In this document: positions 17,001 through 46,192 of the stretch, in pieces
How positions within the stretch are numbered: the first letter of the stretch is position 1
Layout: each line of letters starts with the position of its first letter
Assembly: GCF_002995495.1 (NCBI RefSeq)
Contig: NZ_PVZV01000004.1
Location: 1 to 64,000, forward strand
Origin: Actinocorallia populi
Lineage (GTDB): Bacteria; Actinomycetota; Actinomycetes; Streptosporangiales; Streptosporangiaceae
Reading direction: 5' to 3'
DNA length: 64,000 nt
Program-made: the position numbers and the translations under genes
Notes under the pieces: generated by a model
The model's input: the letters and a program-made list of their open reading frames with translations, nothing else
Told to the model about the DNA's origin: nothing
Databases searched by the model: none

Positions 17001-17336
17001 TCAGAAGTTCACGAGCAGGTCCTCATCGTGCTGGGCCTTCTCGTCGCCGACGATGATGTGGAAGCGCACGCCCATCGCCTTCCCCAGCCTGCGGAGCGTC
17101 TCGATGTCGGGGATGCCGCCGCCGAGTTCGATCCGGGACAGGGCCGGCTGGCTGATTCCCGCGCGTTCGGCCACTTCCTTCTGCGTGAGGTTCTGGGCTC
17201 TGCGAATGGCTCGCAACTGGTCGCCGATCCTGAGATCCCGGCCGGCCCGCTCATATTCAGGATGCTCGGCCACGTCATCCGATTCCGCGAGACGCTTGGC
17301 CTGGAGGGTCCTCCACCGGCTGTGCCCGGCCATCAT
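17001..17336 (-). CDS. XRE-family antitoxin of a HigBA-like module
   Basis: 111 aa with an XRE helix-turn-helix (about 48-75, LTQKEVAERAGISQPALSRIE). It is encoded after, and overlapping by 4 nt (ATGA), a RelE/HigB-like toxin gene, the toxin-first order typical of HigBA. It should bind and neutralise the toxin and repress the operon. The first ATG of two adjacent ones is used. A phage-type regulator is possible, but the paired context makes antitoxin far more likely. Confidence 0.88.
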   Translation of the reverse strand: MMAGHSRWRTLQAKRLAESDDVAEHPEYERAGRDLRIGDQLRAIRRAQNLTQKEVAERAGISQPALSRIELGGGIPDIETLRRLGKAMGVRFHIIVGDEKAQHDEDLLVNF

Positions 17337-38568: not shown

Positions 38569-38602
38569 GATGTTTGACCGGAGCATGGCGCTTGCTGGTT
38601 TT
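38569..38602. promoter_or_regulatory. 34-bp shared upstream element, copy B
   Basis: Second copy of the element at 37252-37285, in the same orientation, 116-149 nt upstream of the PI-PLC start and also next to the divergent urea transporter gene. Confidence 0.65.
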
Positions 38603-38631
38603 TGTTGATCCAAATCCCGGAAACCAGTGTC

Positions 38632-39690
38632 GTGTACCTGCGTATCGATCCTGCGCCGAAAGGCCGCGGGGTCCGCACGCCTGCCGCGGTCGGGGGAGTT
38701 GGCGTCTTGGTATCGGCATCCGCATCACCGGATCAGCCCGGAGAGGGGCCGCACCCCTCGGGGCGGCGTGGCGTCGACGACCTGCTCACGATCCCGAAGG
38801 GCGTCGCGCAGGTCGACTTCCAGTCGAATCCCTGGACCGGCCTGATCTTCCTCCTCGCGTTGTTCGTCGGCGGCTGGCAGTTCGGCGTCTTCGGCCTGCT
38901 GGGCACGGTCGTCGCCACGCTCACCGCGTACCTGCTCGGCGTCTCCTGGAAGGACCGGATCTCGCTGGGCCTGGAGGGCTTCTGCGGCACGCTGATCGGC
39001 GTCGGCCTGGTGCTGTACCTGGGCGCGAGCTGGATGACGGTCCTCGTCGTCATCCTCAGCGCGATCGCCGGGAGCGTGCTGACGTCGGCGATGAACGTGT
39101 GGCTCACTCCTTACAAGCTGCCCACCTTCACCGCGCCCTTCTGCGTGGTCACCACCGCGGTGGTGATCGCCGCACCCGCCTACGCCAGGGTCTGGTCCCA
39201 CCACGCGGGTGCTGCGCCGCCGTCGGCCACCGCCCCGGGCACCGAGATGACCTGGAAGTACCTGTGGCAGGGCACGTTCAACGGCGTCGGCCAGGTGTTC
39301 TTCCAGGACGTCTGGTACGTCGGCCTGATCTTCCTGATCGGGCTGTTCGTCGCCGGCTGGATGACGGGGCTGGTGGCGCTGGTCTCCAGCGTGGTCGGCC
39401 TGCTCACCGGCTGGGTGCTGGGCGTGCAGGCGGCCGATCTCGGAGCCGGCCTGTACGGCTACAACTCCGTCCTGACCGGGCTCGCGCTGTTCGGCATCTT
39501 CGTGGCGGTGAGCCCGGTGAGCGGCGTTTACGCCCTGATCGGCGCAGTGGCCGCCGCGGCGGCGACCGCCACCATCGGCAACCTGCTCCAGGTGGTCGGC
39601 GGCCACACCCTCACCTGGCCCTTCGTGCTGGTGACGTGGGTGTTCCTGGCGGCCGTCCCCATGTTCCGCAAGCTCCACCGCGCCGGATGA
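38632..39690 (+). CDS. Urea transporter (UT family)
   Basis: About 352 aa. Two homologous halves, each opening with (N/D)xWxxGLIFLxxLFVxGW (NPWTGLIFLLALFVGGW and VWYVGLIFLIGLFVAGW), and LGLEGFCGTLIGVGL / LYGYNSVLTGLALFGI repeats give the UT fold of urea channels. The first of a urea/urease gene set; ureA follows after 33 nt. The start is uncertain: GTG at 38632 (GGAAA upstream) is used; TTG at 38707 has a stronger GGGGGAG site. The transporter core begins near 38779. Confidence 0.85.
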   Translation: MYLRIDPAPKGRGVRTPAAVGGVGVLVSASASPDQPGEGPHPSGRRGVDDLLTIPKGVAQVDFQSNPWTGLIFLLALFVGGWQFGVFGLLGTVVATLTAYLLGVSWKDRISLGLEGFCGTLIGVGLVLYLGASWMTVLVVILSAIAGSVLTSAMNVWLTPYKLPTFTAPFCVVTTAVVIAAPAYARVWSHHAGAAPPSATAPGTEMTWKYLWQGTFNGVGQVFFQDVWYVGLIFLIGLFVAGWMTGLVALVSSVVGLLTGWVLGVQAADLGAGLYGYNSVLTGLALFGIFVAVSPVSGVYALIGAVAAAAATATIGNLLQVVGGHTLTWPFVLVTWVFLAAVPMFRKLHRAG

Positions 39691-39723: not shown

Positions 39724-40032
39724 ATGAACCTCACCCCGAGGGAGATGGACAGGCTGACCATCTTCACCGTCGCGCAGATGGCCATCAGGCGCCGCGACCG
39801 CGGCCTGAAGCTGAACTATCCCGAAGCGGTGGCGCTGATCACCCACGAGATCGTCGAGGCCGCCCGGGACGGCAAGAGCGTCGCCGACTGCATGAAGCTG
39901 GGCAAGGAGGTGCTGGGGCCCGACAAGGTGCTGCCCGGCGTCCGCGAGATGCTCCCGCTGCTGCAGGTCGAGGCCGTCTTCGAGGACGGCACCAAGCTGG
40001 TCTCCTGCCACGACCCGGTGGGCGGGAAGTAA
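39724..40032 (+). CDS. ureA: Urease subunit gamma
   Basis: 102 aa, full length. [41 protein letters not shown] and the C-terminal [14 protein letters not shown] are invariant UreA features. Structural subunit of the (ABC)3 nickel urease that hydrolyses urea to ammonia and carbamate. AGAGGAA before the ATG. The next gene overlaps its stop by 1 nt, but that gene is not ureB, which is unusual. Confidence 0.97.
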
Positions 40033-40829
40033 TGCCGGACGGCCGCACCGTCCTGCTGGTCGGCGGGCACGAGAGCCGCGACGGCGCGGTCCTGCCCGCG
40101 CTCGCCGGGCCGGACGGGCCACGGGCCGGAGGGCCGGGCCGCGACCTGCACGTCGCGCTGCGCGAGCACGAACGGGCCGTCGCGGTGCCGATGACGTTCG
40201 GCAGGGATCCCGGCCTGGCGGCCACCGCGGCCCAGACGCTGGGCTGGGCGGCGCGCGACCGGGCGGCCGGGGCGCTGCTGCTGGCCGGGCCGCTGGGCAC
40301 CACCGGGCACCTGGTCTCCTGGATCAGGAGCGCGGTGACCCGGGCGCTGCGCGAGGGGCGGCCGGACCAGGCGGTGCTGCTGGTGGCGCCCGCTGCCGGG
40401 CCCGAGGCGGACGCCGAGCTGTTCCGGGTGGCCCGCCTGGTGTGGCAGCACCTGCCGGTGCGCTGGGTGGAGGTGGCGCTGACCGGGGGCGAGCCGGAGG
40501 TGGACGAGGGGATCGAGCGCTGCCGCCGGCTGGGCGCCGGGAGCGTCGTGCTGGTGCCCGCCTCCTTCGTCCCGGTCCCCGAGCGGCCCGGCATCCGGTC
40601 CACCGGGCCGCTGCTGGGCCGGGCGTCGCTGACGGCGCTGGTCCGCGACCGGGTGGCCGAGGCGGAGCGGCGGTGGGACCGGTACGGCGACGACGGGCTC
40701 GCGACGGCCCGCCACGACCACGGGCACGGCCATGGCCACGGACACGAGAACGACCACGAACACGACAGCCGTGACGGCTTTCCCGCCGCGCTGACGGTGA
40801 TCCAGAAAGGGGCGGCATCCCATGCCTGA
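40032..40829 (+). CDS. CbiX-like protein with His-rich tail inside the urease operon
   Basis: 265 aa. The fold resembles sirohydrochlorin chelatase CbiX: GHES with His13 in the first strand and His93 in [14 protein letters not shown] correspond to the two metal-site histidines of the family. Residues 228-245 are a metal-binding tail with eight His ([17 protein letters not shown]). Coupled to ureA (TAATG) and overlapping ureB by 8 nt, it is an integral operon member. The operon has no ureE, the His-tailed Ni chaperone, so a nickel-delivery role is a good inference. No cobalamin or siroheme genes are nearby. Confidence 0.78.
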
Positions 40830-41244
40830 GTACATGTACGGCGAGGGCGACATCGAGCTGAACGCCGGTCAGGAACGCGTGACGATCACGGTGCGCAACA
40901 CCGGTGACCGGGCCATCCAGATCGGCTCCCACTTCCATTTCTTCGAGACGAACCGCGCGCTGAGCTTCGATCGCGACCGCGCGTTCGGAAAACGCCTGGA
41001 CATCCCCGCGGGCACCGCCGTGCGGTTCGAGCCCGGGGACACCAAGCAGGTGAAGCTGGTCGAGTACGGCGGAGGGCAGCGGCTCGTGGGCTTCGGCGGC
41101 CTGCTCAACGGGAGCGTCCGCTCCACCGAGGCGCGCCGCAAGGCGCTGAAGCGCATGCGTGAGCGCGGCTACCTCGACGAGCCCGAGGAGCCGGGCAAGG
41201 CCAAGGGCGGCGACAAGAAGCCGAAATCCTCCAAGAAGGGCTGA
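40822..41244 (+). CDS. ureB: Urease subunit beta
   Basis: 140 aa. [40 protein letters not shown] and the VGFGGLLNG segment are diagnostic. The C-terminal ~20 residues ([16 protein letters not shown]) form a lysine-rich tail longer than in most UreB proteins. Overlaps the CbiX-like gene by 8 nt and precedes ureC by 5 nt. Confidence 0.97.
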
Positions 41245-41249
41245 CCACG

Positions 41250-42971
41250 ATGACTTCGATAAGCCGTGAGAAATACGCGTCCATGTACGGCCCGACGGTG
41301 GGCGACCGCATCCGGTTGGGGGACACCGACCTCATCGTCGAGGTGGAGCTGGACCACACCGAGGGGCACTACGGCGACGAGACCCAGTACGGCGGCGGCA
41401 AGACCGTCCGCGACGGCATGTCGAGCGATCCCGCCACGAGCGGTCTGATCGCCCTCGACGTGGTGATCACCAACGCGGTGGTCATCGACCCGATGATCGG
41501 CGTCGTCAAGGGCGACATCGGCATCAAGGACGGCAAGATCGTCGGGATCGGCAAGTCCGGCAACCCGCACACCCAGAACGGGGTGGACCGGCGCCTCATC
41601 GTCAGCGCGGACACCGAGGTGATCTCGGGTGAGAACCTCATCGCCACTCCGGGCGGGATCGACACCCACGTGCACTTCCTCGCACCCGAGCAGGCCAAGC
41701 ACGCGCTGAGCAACGGGATCACCACGCTGGTCGGCGGCGGCACCGGCCCCGCCGACGGCAGCCGCGGCTGCACCACCACGCCCGGCCCGTGGAACCTCGC
41801 CCGCATGCTGCAGGCCTACGAGGACATCCCCATCAACGTCGCGGTGTACGGCAAGGGCAACAGCAGCCTGCCCGCGGCGCTGGAGGACCAGATCCGGGGC
41901 GGGGCCGCGGGGCTGAAGGTCCACGAGGACTGGGGCAGCACGCCCGCGGTCATCGACTGCGCGCTCTCGGTGGCCGACGAGTACGACATCCAGGTCGCGA
42001 TCCACACCGACACCCTGAACGAGGGCGGGTTCGTCGAGGACACGATCAACATGATCAACGGCCGCTCGATCCACACCTTCCACTCCGAGGGGGCGGGCGG
42101 CGGCCACGCGCCCGACATCCTGCGGGTGACGGGCGAGCCCAACGTCCTGCCGGCGTCCACGAACCCGACGCTGCCCTACACCGTCAACTCGGTGGACGAG
42201 CTGCTGGACATGACGATGGTCTGCCACCACCTCAGCTACAGCGTGCCCGAGGACGTGGCGTTCGCCGAGAGCCGGGTCCGCGCCGAGACCATCGCCGCCG
42301 AGACCGTGCTGCACGACCTCGGCATCATCAGCATCATCGCGTCGGACTCCCAGGCGATGGGCCGGGTCGGCGAGTCGTTCACCCGCGCCTTCCAGGTCGC
42401 CCACCACAACAAGGACAAGCGCGGGCCGCTGCCGGAGGACTCCTCCCGCAACGACAACTTCCGGGTGCTGCGCTACCTGGCCAAGCTCACCATCAACCCG
42501 GCCCGCGCCAACGGGATGGCGAACACGATCGGCTCGCTGGAGGACGGCAGGCTCGCCGACATCGTGCTGTGGCAGCCGCACTCCTTCGGGGCCAAGCCCT
42601 TCATGGTGGTCAAGGGCGGCGCGATCAGCTGGTTCCCGATGGGCGACCCGAACGCGTCGCTGCCGACGCCGCAGCCGGTCGTCTACCGGCGCACGTTCGG
42701 CGCCCGCGGAACCGCGCTGGCCAGCAGCTGCGTCACCTTCATGTCCCAGGCCGGGATCGCGGCCGGGGTGCCGGAGCGGCTCGGCCTGAGGCGGATCATC
42801 GAGCCGATCCGCCAGTGCCGCACCGTCGACAAGCGCCACATGGTCCGCAACACCACGCTCGCCGACATCGCGGTCGATCCGGAGACCTACAAGGTCACGG
42901 TGAACGGCGACGTCGTCAGCATCGAACCGGCCAAGAAGCTGCCGCTCAACAAGCTGTTCTTCCTCACATGA
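41250..42971 (+). CDS. ureC: Urease subunit alpha (catalytic)
   Basis: 573 aa, full length. Nickel ligands and active-site residues are present: His140 and His142 (DTHVH), the carbamylated Lys223 (GLKVHEDWG, with His225), and flap residues Cys325-His326-His327 (VCHHL). Catalyses urea hydrolysis at a dinuclear Ni site. UreF overlaps its stop by 4 nt. All catalytic positions are conserved, so the enzyme should be active once metallated. Confidence 0.98.
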
Positions 42972-43687
42972 GCGCACCCGCGGCCGAACGCGTCGAGGAA
43001 CTGGACCCGCTGCTGGCCCAGTTCCAGCTCACCGACTCGGGCTTCCCCAGCGGCCTGTACACGCTCTCGCACGGGCTGGAGGGGTACGTCCAGCTCGGGC
43101 TGCTGGACGGTCCGGCGGAGATCTCCGGGCTGCTGCGCGACCTGCTGTACCACTCGGTCGGCCCGGGGGACGCCACGGCGCTGGTGCTCGCCCACCGCGC
43201 CGTCACCGAAGGCGACTGGGACCGGCTGGCGCAGGTCGACCACCGGCTGCACGCGGTCAAGCTCAACCGCGAGCAGCGCACCGCCTCGGTGCGGACCGGC
43301 CGCCAGGTCCTCGACACGGCGGCCTGGGCGTTCGCGCTGCCCGAGACCGACCGGCTGGCCGCCCTGGTGGCGCGGAAGGAGGTGCCCGGCAACCACGCGG
43401 TCGTGGTGGGCGCCGTCCACGCCGGGCTCGGGGTCCCCGTCGAACGCGCGGTGGCCGGCGACCTGTACGCCTTCGCCGCGAGCTGGACGGCGGCGGCGGT
43501 ACGCCTGGCGCGGGTGGACTTCCGCCGCGCCCAGGCGATCCTGCGCGAGGTCCGGCCGGACCTCGCGCGGGTGGCCCGCCGCGCCCTCGCCGCCGAGGAC
43601 CTGCTCGACCTGCACGGCGCGGTCCCCGTCGCCGACACCGTCTCGGCCGCCCACGAGCGGGCTCCGGCCCGCCTGTTCATCACCTGA
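42968..43687 (+). CDS. ureF: Urease accessory protein UreF
   Basis: 239 aa, all-helical. [24 protein letters not shown] is the conserved N-terminal segment; [27 protein letters not shown] matches the central helices. UreF joins UreD to UreG in the activation complex and governs GTPase fidelity. ATG inside the ureC stop. The order C-F-G-D is the usual actinobacterial one. Confidence 0.94.
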
Positions 43688-43697
43688 AGGGAAAGAC

Positions 43698-44333
43698 ATG
43701 GAACTGGAGAAGGTCTTCAAGGTAGGGGTGGGCGGCCCGGTGGGCTCCGGCAAGACCGCCCTGATCGAGGCGCTGGCGCCCCTGCTCATCGACCGCGGGC
43801 ACCACCTCGGCGTGATCACCAACGACATCTACACCCAGGAGGACGCCCAGCACGTCCGGCGGACCCTGGCCGGGGTGCTCGACCCCGAGCGGATCGTGGG
43901 CGTGGAGACGGGCGCCTGCCCGCACACCGCCGTCCGCGACGACCCGACCATGAACCTGGCCGCCGCCGCCGACCTGGTCGACCGGTTCCCCGACATCGAC
44001 CTGCTGCTGTTCGAGAGCGGAGGCGACAACCTGACGCTCACCTTCAGCCCGGCGCTGGCCGACATGTACATCTTCGTCCTGGACACCGCCGAGGGCGAGA
44101 AGATGCCGCGCAAGCGCGGTCCCGGCACCACGGACTCCGACCTCCTCGTCATCAACAAGATCGACATCGCGCGGTACGTGCGGACCGACCTGGGGGTGAT
44201 GGAACGCGACGCGCGGGCGGTGCGCGGTGCGGGCCCGGTGGTGCTGACCGACTGCCTGGCCGGCACCGGGATCGTCGAGGTGGCCGATCTCATCGAGTCG
44301 CGGGCGGGGGCGGCGTGTACCTCTCCGGCCTAG
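43698..44333 (+). CDS. ureG: Urease accessory GTPase UreG
   Basis: 211 aa SIMIBI GTPase. P-loop GGPVGSGKT (12-20), ETGACPHTAVRDD with the CPH nickel-binding motif, FESGGDNL and the NKID guanine motif are all visible. Delivers Ni2+ to apo-urease at the cost of GTP. AAGGGAAAG precedes the ATG. The ureD gene starts 19 nt before its stop. Confidence 0.97.
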   Translation: MELEKVFKVGVGGPVGSGKTALIEALAPLLIDRGHHLGVITNDIYTQEDAQHVRRTLAGVLDPERIVGVETGACPHTAVRDDPTMNLAAAADLVDRFPDIDLLLFESGGDNLTLTFSPALADMYIFVLDTAEGEKMPRKRGPGTTDSDLLVINKIDIARYVRTDLGVMERDARAVRGAGPVVLTDCLAGTGIVEVADLIESRAGAACTSPA

Positions 44334-45283
44334 AGACGCCCGGCGGCGCGGGGGCCGGCGACCGGCTGGCCCCCGGGTGGTACGAGCCGCCGTGGGTGCC
44401 GCCGGCGGTGCGCAGGCACTCCGCCCCGCCGGACACGCTGCCGGTCGGCAGTCCGGGCAAGGTCGGCGTCCTGGATCTGGCGTACGAGGAGATCGGCGGC
44501 CGGACGGAGCTGACCGGGCACTACCAGAAGTCGCCGCTGCAGATCACCCGCCCGCTGTACCACGACCCCGCGCTGCGGCACATGGCGCACACGATCATGA
44601 TCGCGACCGGCGGCGGCACCCTCCAGGGCGACCGCTACCGCGTCGACGTCTCCTGCGGGGCGGGCGCGTTCGTCAACCTCACCACCCAGGGCGCCACCCG
44701 GGTCTACCGGATGGAGCAGGACTACGCCACCCAGCTGGTCAACCTCACGGCCGGTCCCGGCGCCTACCTGGAGTACCTGCCGGACACCACGATCCCCTTC
44801 GCCGGCTCCCGGTACTACCAGCGGATCGGGGTCACCGCCGACCCGGAGGCCACGGTCGTGCTGGGCGAGACGATGCTGGCCGGCCGGCTGGCACGGGGGG
44901 AGCGGCACGCCTACACGGCGTACTGCAGCGACATCGAGGTGCACGACCCCGACGGAGGGCTGCTGTTCGCCGACCCGCTCCGGCTGGTGCCGCAGGAGGA
45001 GGGGGTGACCGGTCTCGCGGTGATGGACGGCTTCGACGCCCTGTCGTCCCTGTACGTCGTCACCGGGGCCCGGCCCGCGCAGGAGGTGGCCGACGCCCTG
45101 CACGAGGCGCTCGCCGGCACCGGTCTGCGGACCGGGGCCAGCGTCCTGCCGGGCGGGCGGGGAGCCTGGGCGCGGATCCTCGGCGACACGTCGCCCGAGG
45201 TGGAGGAGGCCTTCATGCGGGCCTGGGAGGCCGTCCGCAGGCTGCTGCTGGGGGTGCCCGCCCCCGACCGCCGCAGGGCGTGA
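44315..45283 (+). CDS. ureD: Urease accessory protein UreD
   Basis: 322 aa. LTGHYQKSPLQITRPLYHD, TTQGATRVYRM and LEYLPDTTIPFAGSRYYQR are UreD/UreH landmarks. Binds apo-urease and channels nickel from UreG. GTG start overlapping ureG by 19 nt. The first ~45 residues, including a Pro-rich stretch, are longer than in most homologues, so a later start cannot be excluded. Confidence 0.93.
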   Translation: MYLSGLETPGGAGAGDRLAPGWYEPPWVPPAVRRHSAPPDTLPVGSPGKVGVLDLAYEEIGGRTELTGHYQKSPLQITRPLYHDPALRHMAHTIMIATGGGTLQGDRYRVDVSCGAGAFVNLTTQGATRVYRMEQDYATQLVNLTAGPGAYLEYLPDTTIPFAGSRYYQRIGVTADPEATVVLGETMLAGRLARGERHAYTAYCSDIEVHDPDGGLLFADPLRLVPQEEGVTGLAVMDGFDALSSLYVVTGARPAQEVADALHEALAGTGLRTGASVLPGGRGAWARILGDTSPEVEEAFMRAWEAVRRLLLGVPAPDRRRA

Positions 45284-45323: not shown

Positions 45324-45839
45324 ATGGAAGATTCGAGAGAGGCGGGAGGGCGCCTGCTCCATCGTGAGAAGGCCGAGGCCTCCGCCCTGGACCGGAACAA
45401 GACGGGGCCTCCCCGCCATCCGGGAATGCATTCCAGCGCGTTCCTGGACATCGCCGTCGGCGGCGCGATCGGCGCCCTGCTGCGTTATCTGATCACCGAG
45501 GCGATGCCCGGGGCGAAGAGCGGCTTCCCCTGGGGCACCCTCCTGGTGAACGTCCTCGCCTGCCTTCTCATGGGTCTGCTGACGACGTACCTGCTCAAGG
45601 GGCGGCCGCACCCCTCCGCCCGGCTCTTCCTGGTCACCGGCTACCTCGGCGGCTTCAGCACGTTCTCCCACCTCATCGACGGGATAGACGCGCTGGCCCG
45701 CGCCGGGAGCTGGGGCCTGAGCGTCACCTACGCGGTGGTCAGCGTGCTGGGCGGCCTGATCGCCGTCGCGGCGGGGCTGCGGCTGGGCGGGATGATCCCG
45801 CATCCGGCCGACCGGTCCGGAGAGGGGCGGACGCCATGA
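45324..45839 (+). CDS. crcB: Fluoride ion channel CrcB (first subunit)
   Basis: 171 aa. Core with four helices: VGGAIGALLRYLI, FPWGTLLVNVLACLLMG, GYLGGFSTFSHLID, then the last helix. GGFSTFS and N(V)LA carry the conserved Fluc residues. The first 40 residues are a charged N-terminal extension not in the basic family; Met35 (GMHSSAFLDI) is an alternative start. Works as an antiparallel dimer with the second CrcB, whose gene overlaps by ATGA. No fluoride riboswitch was recognised upstream. Confidence 0.9.
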   Translation: MEDSREAGGRLLHREKAEASALDRNKTGPPRHPGMHSSAFLDIAVGGAIGALLRYLITEAMPGAKSGFPWGTLLVNVLACLLMGLLTTYLLKGRPHPSARLFLVTGYLGGFSTFSHLIDGIDALARAGSWGLSVTYAVVSVLGGLIAVAAGLRLGGMIPHPADRSGEGRTP

Positions 45840-46192
45840 CGTTCCTGCTGGTGCTCATCGGAGGCGCGTTCGGCGCCGTGCTGCGCTACGTCCTCGACGC
45901 GAGGGTCAAGAAGCGGTTCGGCAAGGCGTTCCCCTGGGGGACGCTGACGGTCAACATCCTGGGCGCGGGCCTCCTGGGGGCGCTGCACGGCGCGGGCACG
46001 GGCACCGCGGTGGAAGCACTGCTGGGCACGGGCTTCTGCGGCGCGCTGACCACGTTCAGCACCTTCGAGCTGGACACCGTCCACCTCATCCAGAACGGCG
46101 AGCACACCAAGGCCGTCACGAACATCTTCGTCTCCATCCTGCTCGGCGTCATCGTCTTCGCGCTCTTCTACGCCCTGTTCCGCGCGATCTGA
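45836..46192 (+). CDS. crcB: Fluoride ion channel CrcB (second subunit)
   Basis: 118 aa. IGGAFGAVLRYVLD, FPWGTLTVNILGAGLLGAL and GFCGALTTFSTFELDT match Fluc/CrcB. The two adjacent, dissimilar copies are the usual heterodimeric arrangement in Gram-positive bacteria. Expels F- from the cytosol. Translation is coupled to the first gene. Confidence 0.93.
   Translation: MTFLLVLIGGAFGAVLRYVLDARVKKRFGKAFPWGTLTVNILGAGLLGALHGAGTGTAVEALLGTGFCGALTTFSTFELDTVHLIQNGEHTKAVTNIFVSILLGVIVFALFYALFRAI

Follow-up and report, generated by a model that had tools for sequence, protein, structure and literature searches.

A histidine-tailed relative of the CbiX chelatases between ureA and ureB: a candidate metal-handling protein of actinomycete ureases

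The urease operon described here lies in the first 64,000 nucleotides of contig NZ_PVZV01000004.1 of Actinocorallia populi, a stretch referred to as the window. Its ureA and ureB genes are separated by an additional gene, here called X, which encodes a two-lobed protein resembling the class II chelatases and carrying a histidine-rich tail. By Pfam, the gene order is UT-ureA-X-ureB-ureC-ureF-ureG-ureD, UT being a urea transporter (Table 1). A first-pass annotation of the window had described an open frame of 265 codons, joined to ureA through TAATG and to ureB through an overlap of 8 nucleotides, with eight histidines in its tail and with no ureE in the operon. All of these statements were confirmed, the tail by residue count and the missing ureE by the Pfam identity of the urease neighbors and by zero UreE_N matches in the source genome. 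Because the X gene overlaps both ureA and ureB, co-transcription and translational coupling with the urease genes can be presumed. Many soil actinomycetes carry such a histidine-tailed chelatase relative between their first two urease genes, and two features of X, His93 and the long tail, follow its association with urease.

Table 1. The urease operon and the features of X, in window coordinates.
Feature	Position	Strand	Remarks
UT, urea transporter, first gene of the operon	38602..39690	+	Pfam PF03253, E 2.7e-82
ureA, urease gamma	39724..40032	+	Pfam PF00547, E 1.7e-42; stop and X start share TAATG
X, class II chelatase-like protein of 265 amino acids, two-lobed and ending in a His-rich tail	40032..40829	+	
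His13 of X, in GGHES motif	40068..40070	+	Aligns to first catalytic His of CbiX/SirB
T-F/L-G-R-D-P motif, X residues 55-60	40194..40211	+	Loop of second catalytic His in most CbiX
His93 of X	40308..40310	+	
His-rich tail of X, residues 228-245, 8 His	40713..40766	+	
ureB, urease beta	40822..41244	+	Pfam PF00699; ATG at 40822, 8-nucleotide overlap with X, whose stop TGA ends at 40829
ureC, urease alpha	41250..42971	+	Pfam PF00449 and PF01979
ureF	42968..43687	+	Pfam PF01730, E 2.8e-35
ureG, N-terminal His stretch absent	43698..44333	+	Pfam PF02492
ureD	44315..45283	+	Pfam PF01774

To collect relatives of X, an alignment of 31 family members was run against 84,980 species genomes; 102 were found, and the analysis covers 80 of them. 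A urease operon surrounds 73 of the 80. The position between ureA and ureB, which the first-pass annotation had proposed searching for across actinomycetes, is occupied in a complete ureA-X-ureB arrangement by 63 relatives, while four show UT-X-ureB-F-G-D with ureA-ureC displaced and six are cut by contig ends. The homologues are therefore found mainly with urease, and not with siroheme or cobalamin genes. Split operons are seen in Actinomadura (L095, L096, L102 and L124), with ureA-ureC downstream of UT-X-ureB-F-G-D. The hosts of linked copies include Streptosporangium, Nonomuraea, Microtetraspora, Actinomadura, Streptomyces, Kitasatospora, Streptacidiphilus, Rhodococcus/Prescottella and Speluncibacter. 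Additionally, PLSDB contains two unannotated megaplasmid copies, both beside urease genes, one with an operon running through ureD and the other with just ureB and a piece of UT. The distances among X proteins correlate with those among UreC proteins (Mantel r 0.88, n=68, 0 of 2000 permutations). The ratio of nonsynonymous to synonymous substitution rates (dN/dS) in the X core is mostly 0.14-0.38, about the level of UT and above that of UreC; the closest pair, at 0.58 from very few changes, lies outside this main range. Chance or artefact as an explanation of the locus is ruled out by the linkage in 73 of 80 relatives together with this purifying selection.

Membership of X in the CbiX family is marginal by sequence, but clear by predicted fold, which is that of a two-lobed chelatase. 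The Pfam CbiX model scores 22.6 bits against a cut-off of 22 and matches lobe 2 alone. At E <= 0.01, it matches 59 of the 78 rows of an alignment composed of the window X and 77 relatives (L118, L146 and L162 of the 80 being left out). No NCBIfam model matches X, and the matches of three other families to 1-5 of the 78 rows are probably due to composition. A sequence search of the PDB with X returned nothing relevant.

His13 and His93 had both been assigned in the first pass to the catalytic positions of CbiX, and one of the two assignments stands. In the profile alignment, His13 falls on the first catalytic histidine (SirB His10), and the GHE motif is present in 79 of the 80 relatives, a count that depends on the start chosen for L141 and L163, as wrong starts omit the motif. 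His93 lies off the second site, one helix beyond the corresponding loop, at a helix start and near the canonical PLGPH motif. The second catalytic histidine, SirB His76, which we take to be the histidine of the GHxKGDIP/YHSKIDLP motif, has no counterpart in X by profile alignment and secondary structure, and the loop reads TFGRDPG with no histidine. Residues T55, G57, R58 and D59 are invariant across the 78 rows. X thus belongs by fold with the CbiX chelatases, yet lacks a defining catalytic residue. SirB residues are numbered here as in PMC11301274.

Among known systems, X is similar to the actinobacterial form of CbiX-L, the sirohydrochlorin cobaltochelatase of the cobalamin pathway, in its two lobes, first catalytic histidine and His-rich C-terminal tail. 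One such protein is L005, whose neighbors look CobJ- and CbiC-like from reading of the open reading frames, and which agrees with lobe 2 of X at 36% over residues 85-192. Unlike CbiX-L, X has no second catalytic histidine and no CxxC, and instead shows TLGRDP, His93 and a place in the urease operon. CxxC is found in 0 of the 78 rows of the X group; MxCxxC, the iron-sulfur motif preceding the His tail of CbiX-L, occurs in 15 of 26 CbiX-like loci and not in X. A second CbiX-like group in the family (L013-L016, L018, L020, L023, L024 and L030) lacks the second catalytic histidine, MxCxxC and the His tail. UreE has a His-rich C-terminus and is encoded in urease operons, and X resembles it in both respects. 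However, X differs from UreE in fold, and a Pfam search found no UreE domain in X (E <= 1) or in any of the 78 rows (E <= 0.01). The ferrochelatase SirB of Bacillus subtilis shares 12% identity with X, its His76 having no partner there and the His tail being on X. For CbiX-L, the His-rich region has been proposed to serve in metal storage and delivery, according to a review (PMC7689651).

Two features of X track its linkage to urease. His93 occurs in all 73 linked copies (in L110 by alignment, the motif pattern having missed it) and in none of the seven unlinked ones. The tail holds at least five histidines in 71 of 73 linked copies (L104 has four and L146 is truncated by a contig end), and 3-4 in all seven unlinked copies. 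Over the 78 rows the tail ranges from 3 to 32 histidines; the X of Streptomyces abyssomicinicus (L118:7986-9698) reaches 571 amino acids with a very long His/Gly tail. The unlinked copies, four from Catenulispora, two from Spongiactinospora and one from a metagenome-assembled genome in which X follows an internally deleted ureA, represent at least three lineages and not seven events; neighboring open reading frames were listed for L129 and L164 alone. L103 was scored as unlinked despite the ureA remnant ahead of it. On its contig, shared with L004 (325-375), ureA is reduced by internal deletion to its first and last few codons, and X is open behind it. In Spongiactinospora (L129 and L133), UT and X form a pair with no urease genes nearby. 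Catenulispora pinistramenti additionally has a linked copy, which carries His93 and a long tail.

The distribution of X was compared with that of UreE in searches that scored just the best first-look candidates per genome and may have missed some. A strong X (1.1e-28 or better) was found in 47 of the 341 genomes of the family, ureA in 246, and UreE_N over the Pfam cut-off in none (sub-threshold in 12); X was therefore rejected as a general substitute for UreE. Among 296 genomes sampled from the class, five had an X that passed 1e-15, two of them strongly (the source genome and G459), and UreE was over threshold in five. Among the matches listed for 297 family genomes, 40 UreC proteins stand at an identity of at least 69% and the rest at 59% or less; of the 40, 30 belong to genomes that have X and 10 to genomes that lack it. 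In these ten X-less sister operons, 27-126 base pairs separate ureA from ureB. One of them, G241, has a ureB frame of 345 amino acids with a Lys/Ala-rich C-terminal end (L204:4456-5493). The source genome itself holds a second urease, with a UreC 53% identical, ureA adjoining ureB, and no X.

A different carrier of histidines is known from other ureases. In PMC2770081, an N-terminal His stretch on UreG is proposed to offset the missing UreE; ureE-less genomes mostly have it, and HypB is suggested for two exceptions. In those systems the stretch sits on the GTPase, whereas in X-plus operons it sits on X instead. Taking three or more histidines ahead of the P-loop as the criterion, with the same scripts throughout, a UreG stretch was found in 1 of 68 X-plus operons, in 28 of 30 X-less operons of the other clade (32 regions hand-picked among the matches listed, 30 with UreG) and in five of nine X-less sisters (nine of the ten having UreG), a contrast between X-plus and X-less operons that is inflated by relatedness. 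With the nearest or farthest starts, the counts become 0-2 of 68, 27-29 of 30 and 2-5 of nine. From these sequences, X fits as the His carrier where UreG has none.

Comparative evidence gives good support to the first-pass suggestion of a chelatase diverted to urease maturation: X is linked to urease, it co-varies with UreC, the second catalytic histidine and CxxC are absent, and His93 with a long tail occurs in linked copies alone. With moderate confidence, we propose that a former cobalamin-type chelatase (CbiX-L) provided the scaffold of X, now a metal-handling protein dedicated to urease. It would most likely be a nickel-holding and delivery protein for urease, one that would act like UreE without being a UreE. 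The tail would collect several Ni2+ ions; the folded part, perhaps via its cleft and His93, would dock on the UreDFG-apourease assembly; and the nickel would then pass to UreG or urease. In this operon X would take the place of UreE, or of the UreG His stretch found in other UreE-less ureases. More tentatively, a whole actinobacterial urease clade may use a third nickel route besides UreE and the UreG stretch, in which a duplicated cobaltochelatase lost its second histidine and its cleft and tail became a metallochaperone, some losses of X being offset by the UreG stretch.

Several observations weigh against a urease-dedicated X. Purifying selection on the unlinked, tail-less cores (dN/dS 0.32 for the Spongiactinospora pair, from two species, and 0.14 for the Catenulispora paralogues of one genome) is the main result opposing a urease-only role. 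Because these cores are constrained, the X core may have a role independent of urease; in one Spongiactinospora assembly, ureC was not detected at E 1e-30. Most ureases of the family are without X, and parsimony on a quick UreC tree (two long-branch outgroups; 12 X-less rows of 82; L207 carries X) gives at least three losses within the UreC clade of X, in G329, in G292 and in a clade of eight. In G329 the start and His tail of X survive as one 45-codon frame, which could mean either that the tail has been kept or that the deletion is recent, the latter being the adverse case. CbiX-L is also His-tailed, so a tail by itself does not single out nickel or urease. The absence of the second catalytic histidine is not special to X either, since the residue is present in 19 of 28 compared CbiX-like sequences and absent in nine, none of which belongs to the X group, and His13 is lost in two urease-linked copies (L003 and L093). 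Three of the five sisters with a UreG stretch require an upstream start for it, and the X-less sisters G241, G247 and G251 also lack the stretch, with no carrier seen. The source genome has HypA, a possible supplier of nickel. Finally, the counts cover related genomes, which are not independent.

Other explanations have been weighed against the same evidence. X may be a nickel store alone, a His-rich buffer near urease with no specific hand-off, and the widely variable tail, very long in L118, would agree with this, as would G329, which keeps only the start and the tail. We regard a pure store as unlikely, however, as the folded core is conserved under purifying selection, His93 lies within the fold and tracks linkage, and X is placed between ureA and ureB in most relatives. 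Less probable still is an assembly or structural factor, whose core would bind UreA/UreB or apourease during assembly, with metal being secondary. The ureA-X-ureB order, the X/ureB overlap, the persistence of X beside ureB where ureA and ureC relocate, and the retention of the core in tail-less unlinked copies speak for such a factor, but the features that track urease linkage are the His tail and His93, and the same UreC clade includes X-less operons. Least probable of all is a working tetrapyrrole chelatase (for siroheme, cobalamin or a nickel tetrapyrrole) merely riding in the urease operon: the predicted class II fold, the retained first catalytic histidine, the CbiX-L likeness and the selection on unlinked cores agree with it, but the second catalytic histidine is missing, no tetrapyrrole genes were seen by eye next to X (in the window, L129 and L164), and the source genome has two further CbiX genes. 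A need for siroheme as the reason for X was rejected on account of these two genes.

Some further features were noted in the window. The Rfam family 5_ureB_sRNA (RF02514) matches at 41405-41703 on the minus strand, antisense to ureC (score 49.7, cut-off 40), which probably reflects coding conservation of urease alpha and not a real small RNA. Just past ureD, two overlapping CrcB-like frames lie on the plus strand, at 45324-45839 by Pfam CrcB and at 45836-46192 by similarity judged by eye. A search for a Nur-type box gave a single match, at 17200 and with 3 mismatches, against 2.8 matches expected by chance, and lends no support.

In the open PMC literature, subscription papers being outside the search, no paper was found that reports a urease operon containing a gene for CbiX or for a sirohydrochlorin chelatase. 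What appears new here is a putative His-rich accessory protein for metal handling, built on an unexpected scaffold. X is a conserved candidate for the nickel supply of UreE-less ureases. Natural experiments already exist in the tail-only G329, the X-less sister operons and the unlinked paralogues without His93 or a long tail. The annotation of X genes as chelatases becomes doubtful and, if the proposal is true, a scaffold for cofactor metalation would have been re-used for handling the metal of a protein.
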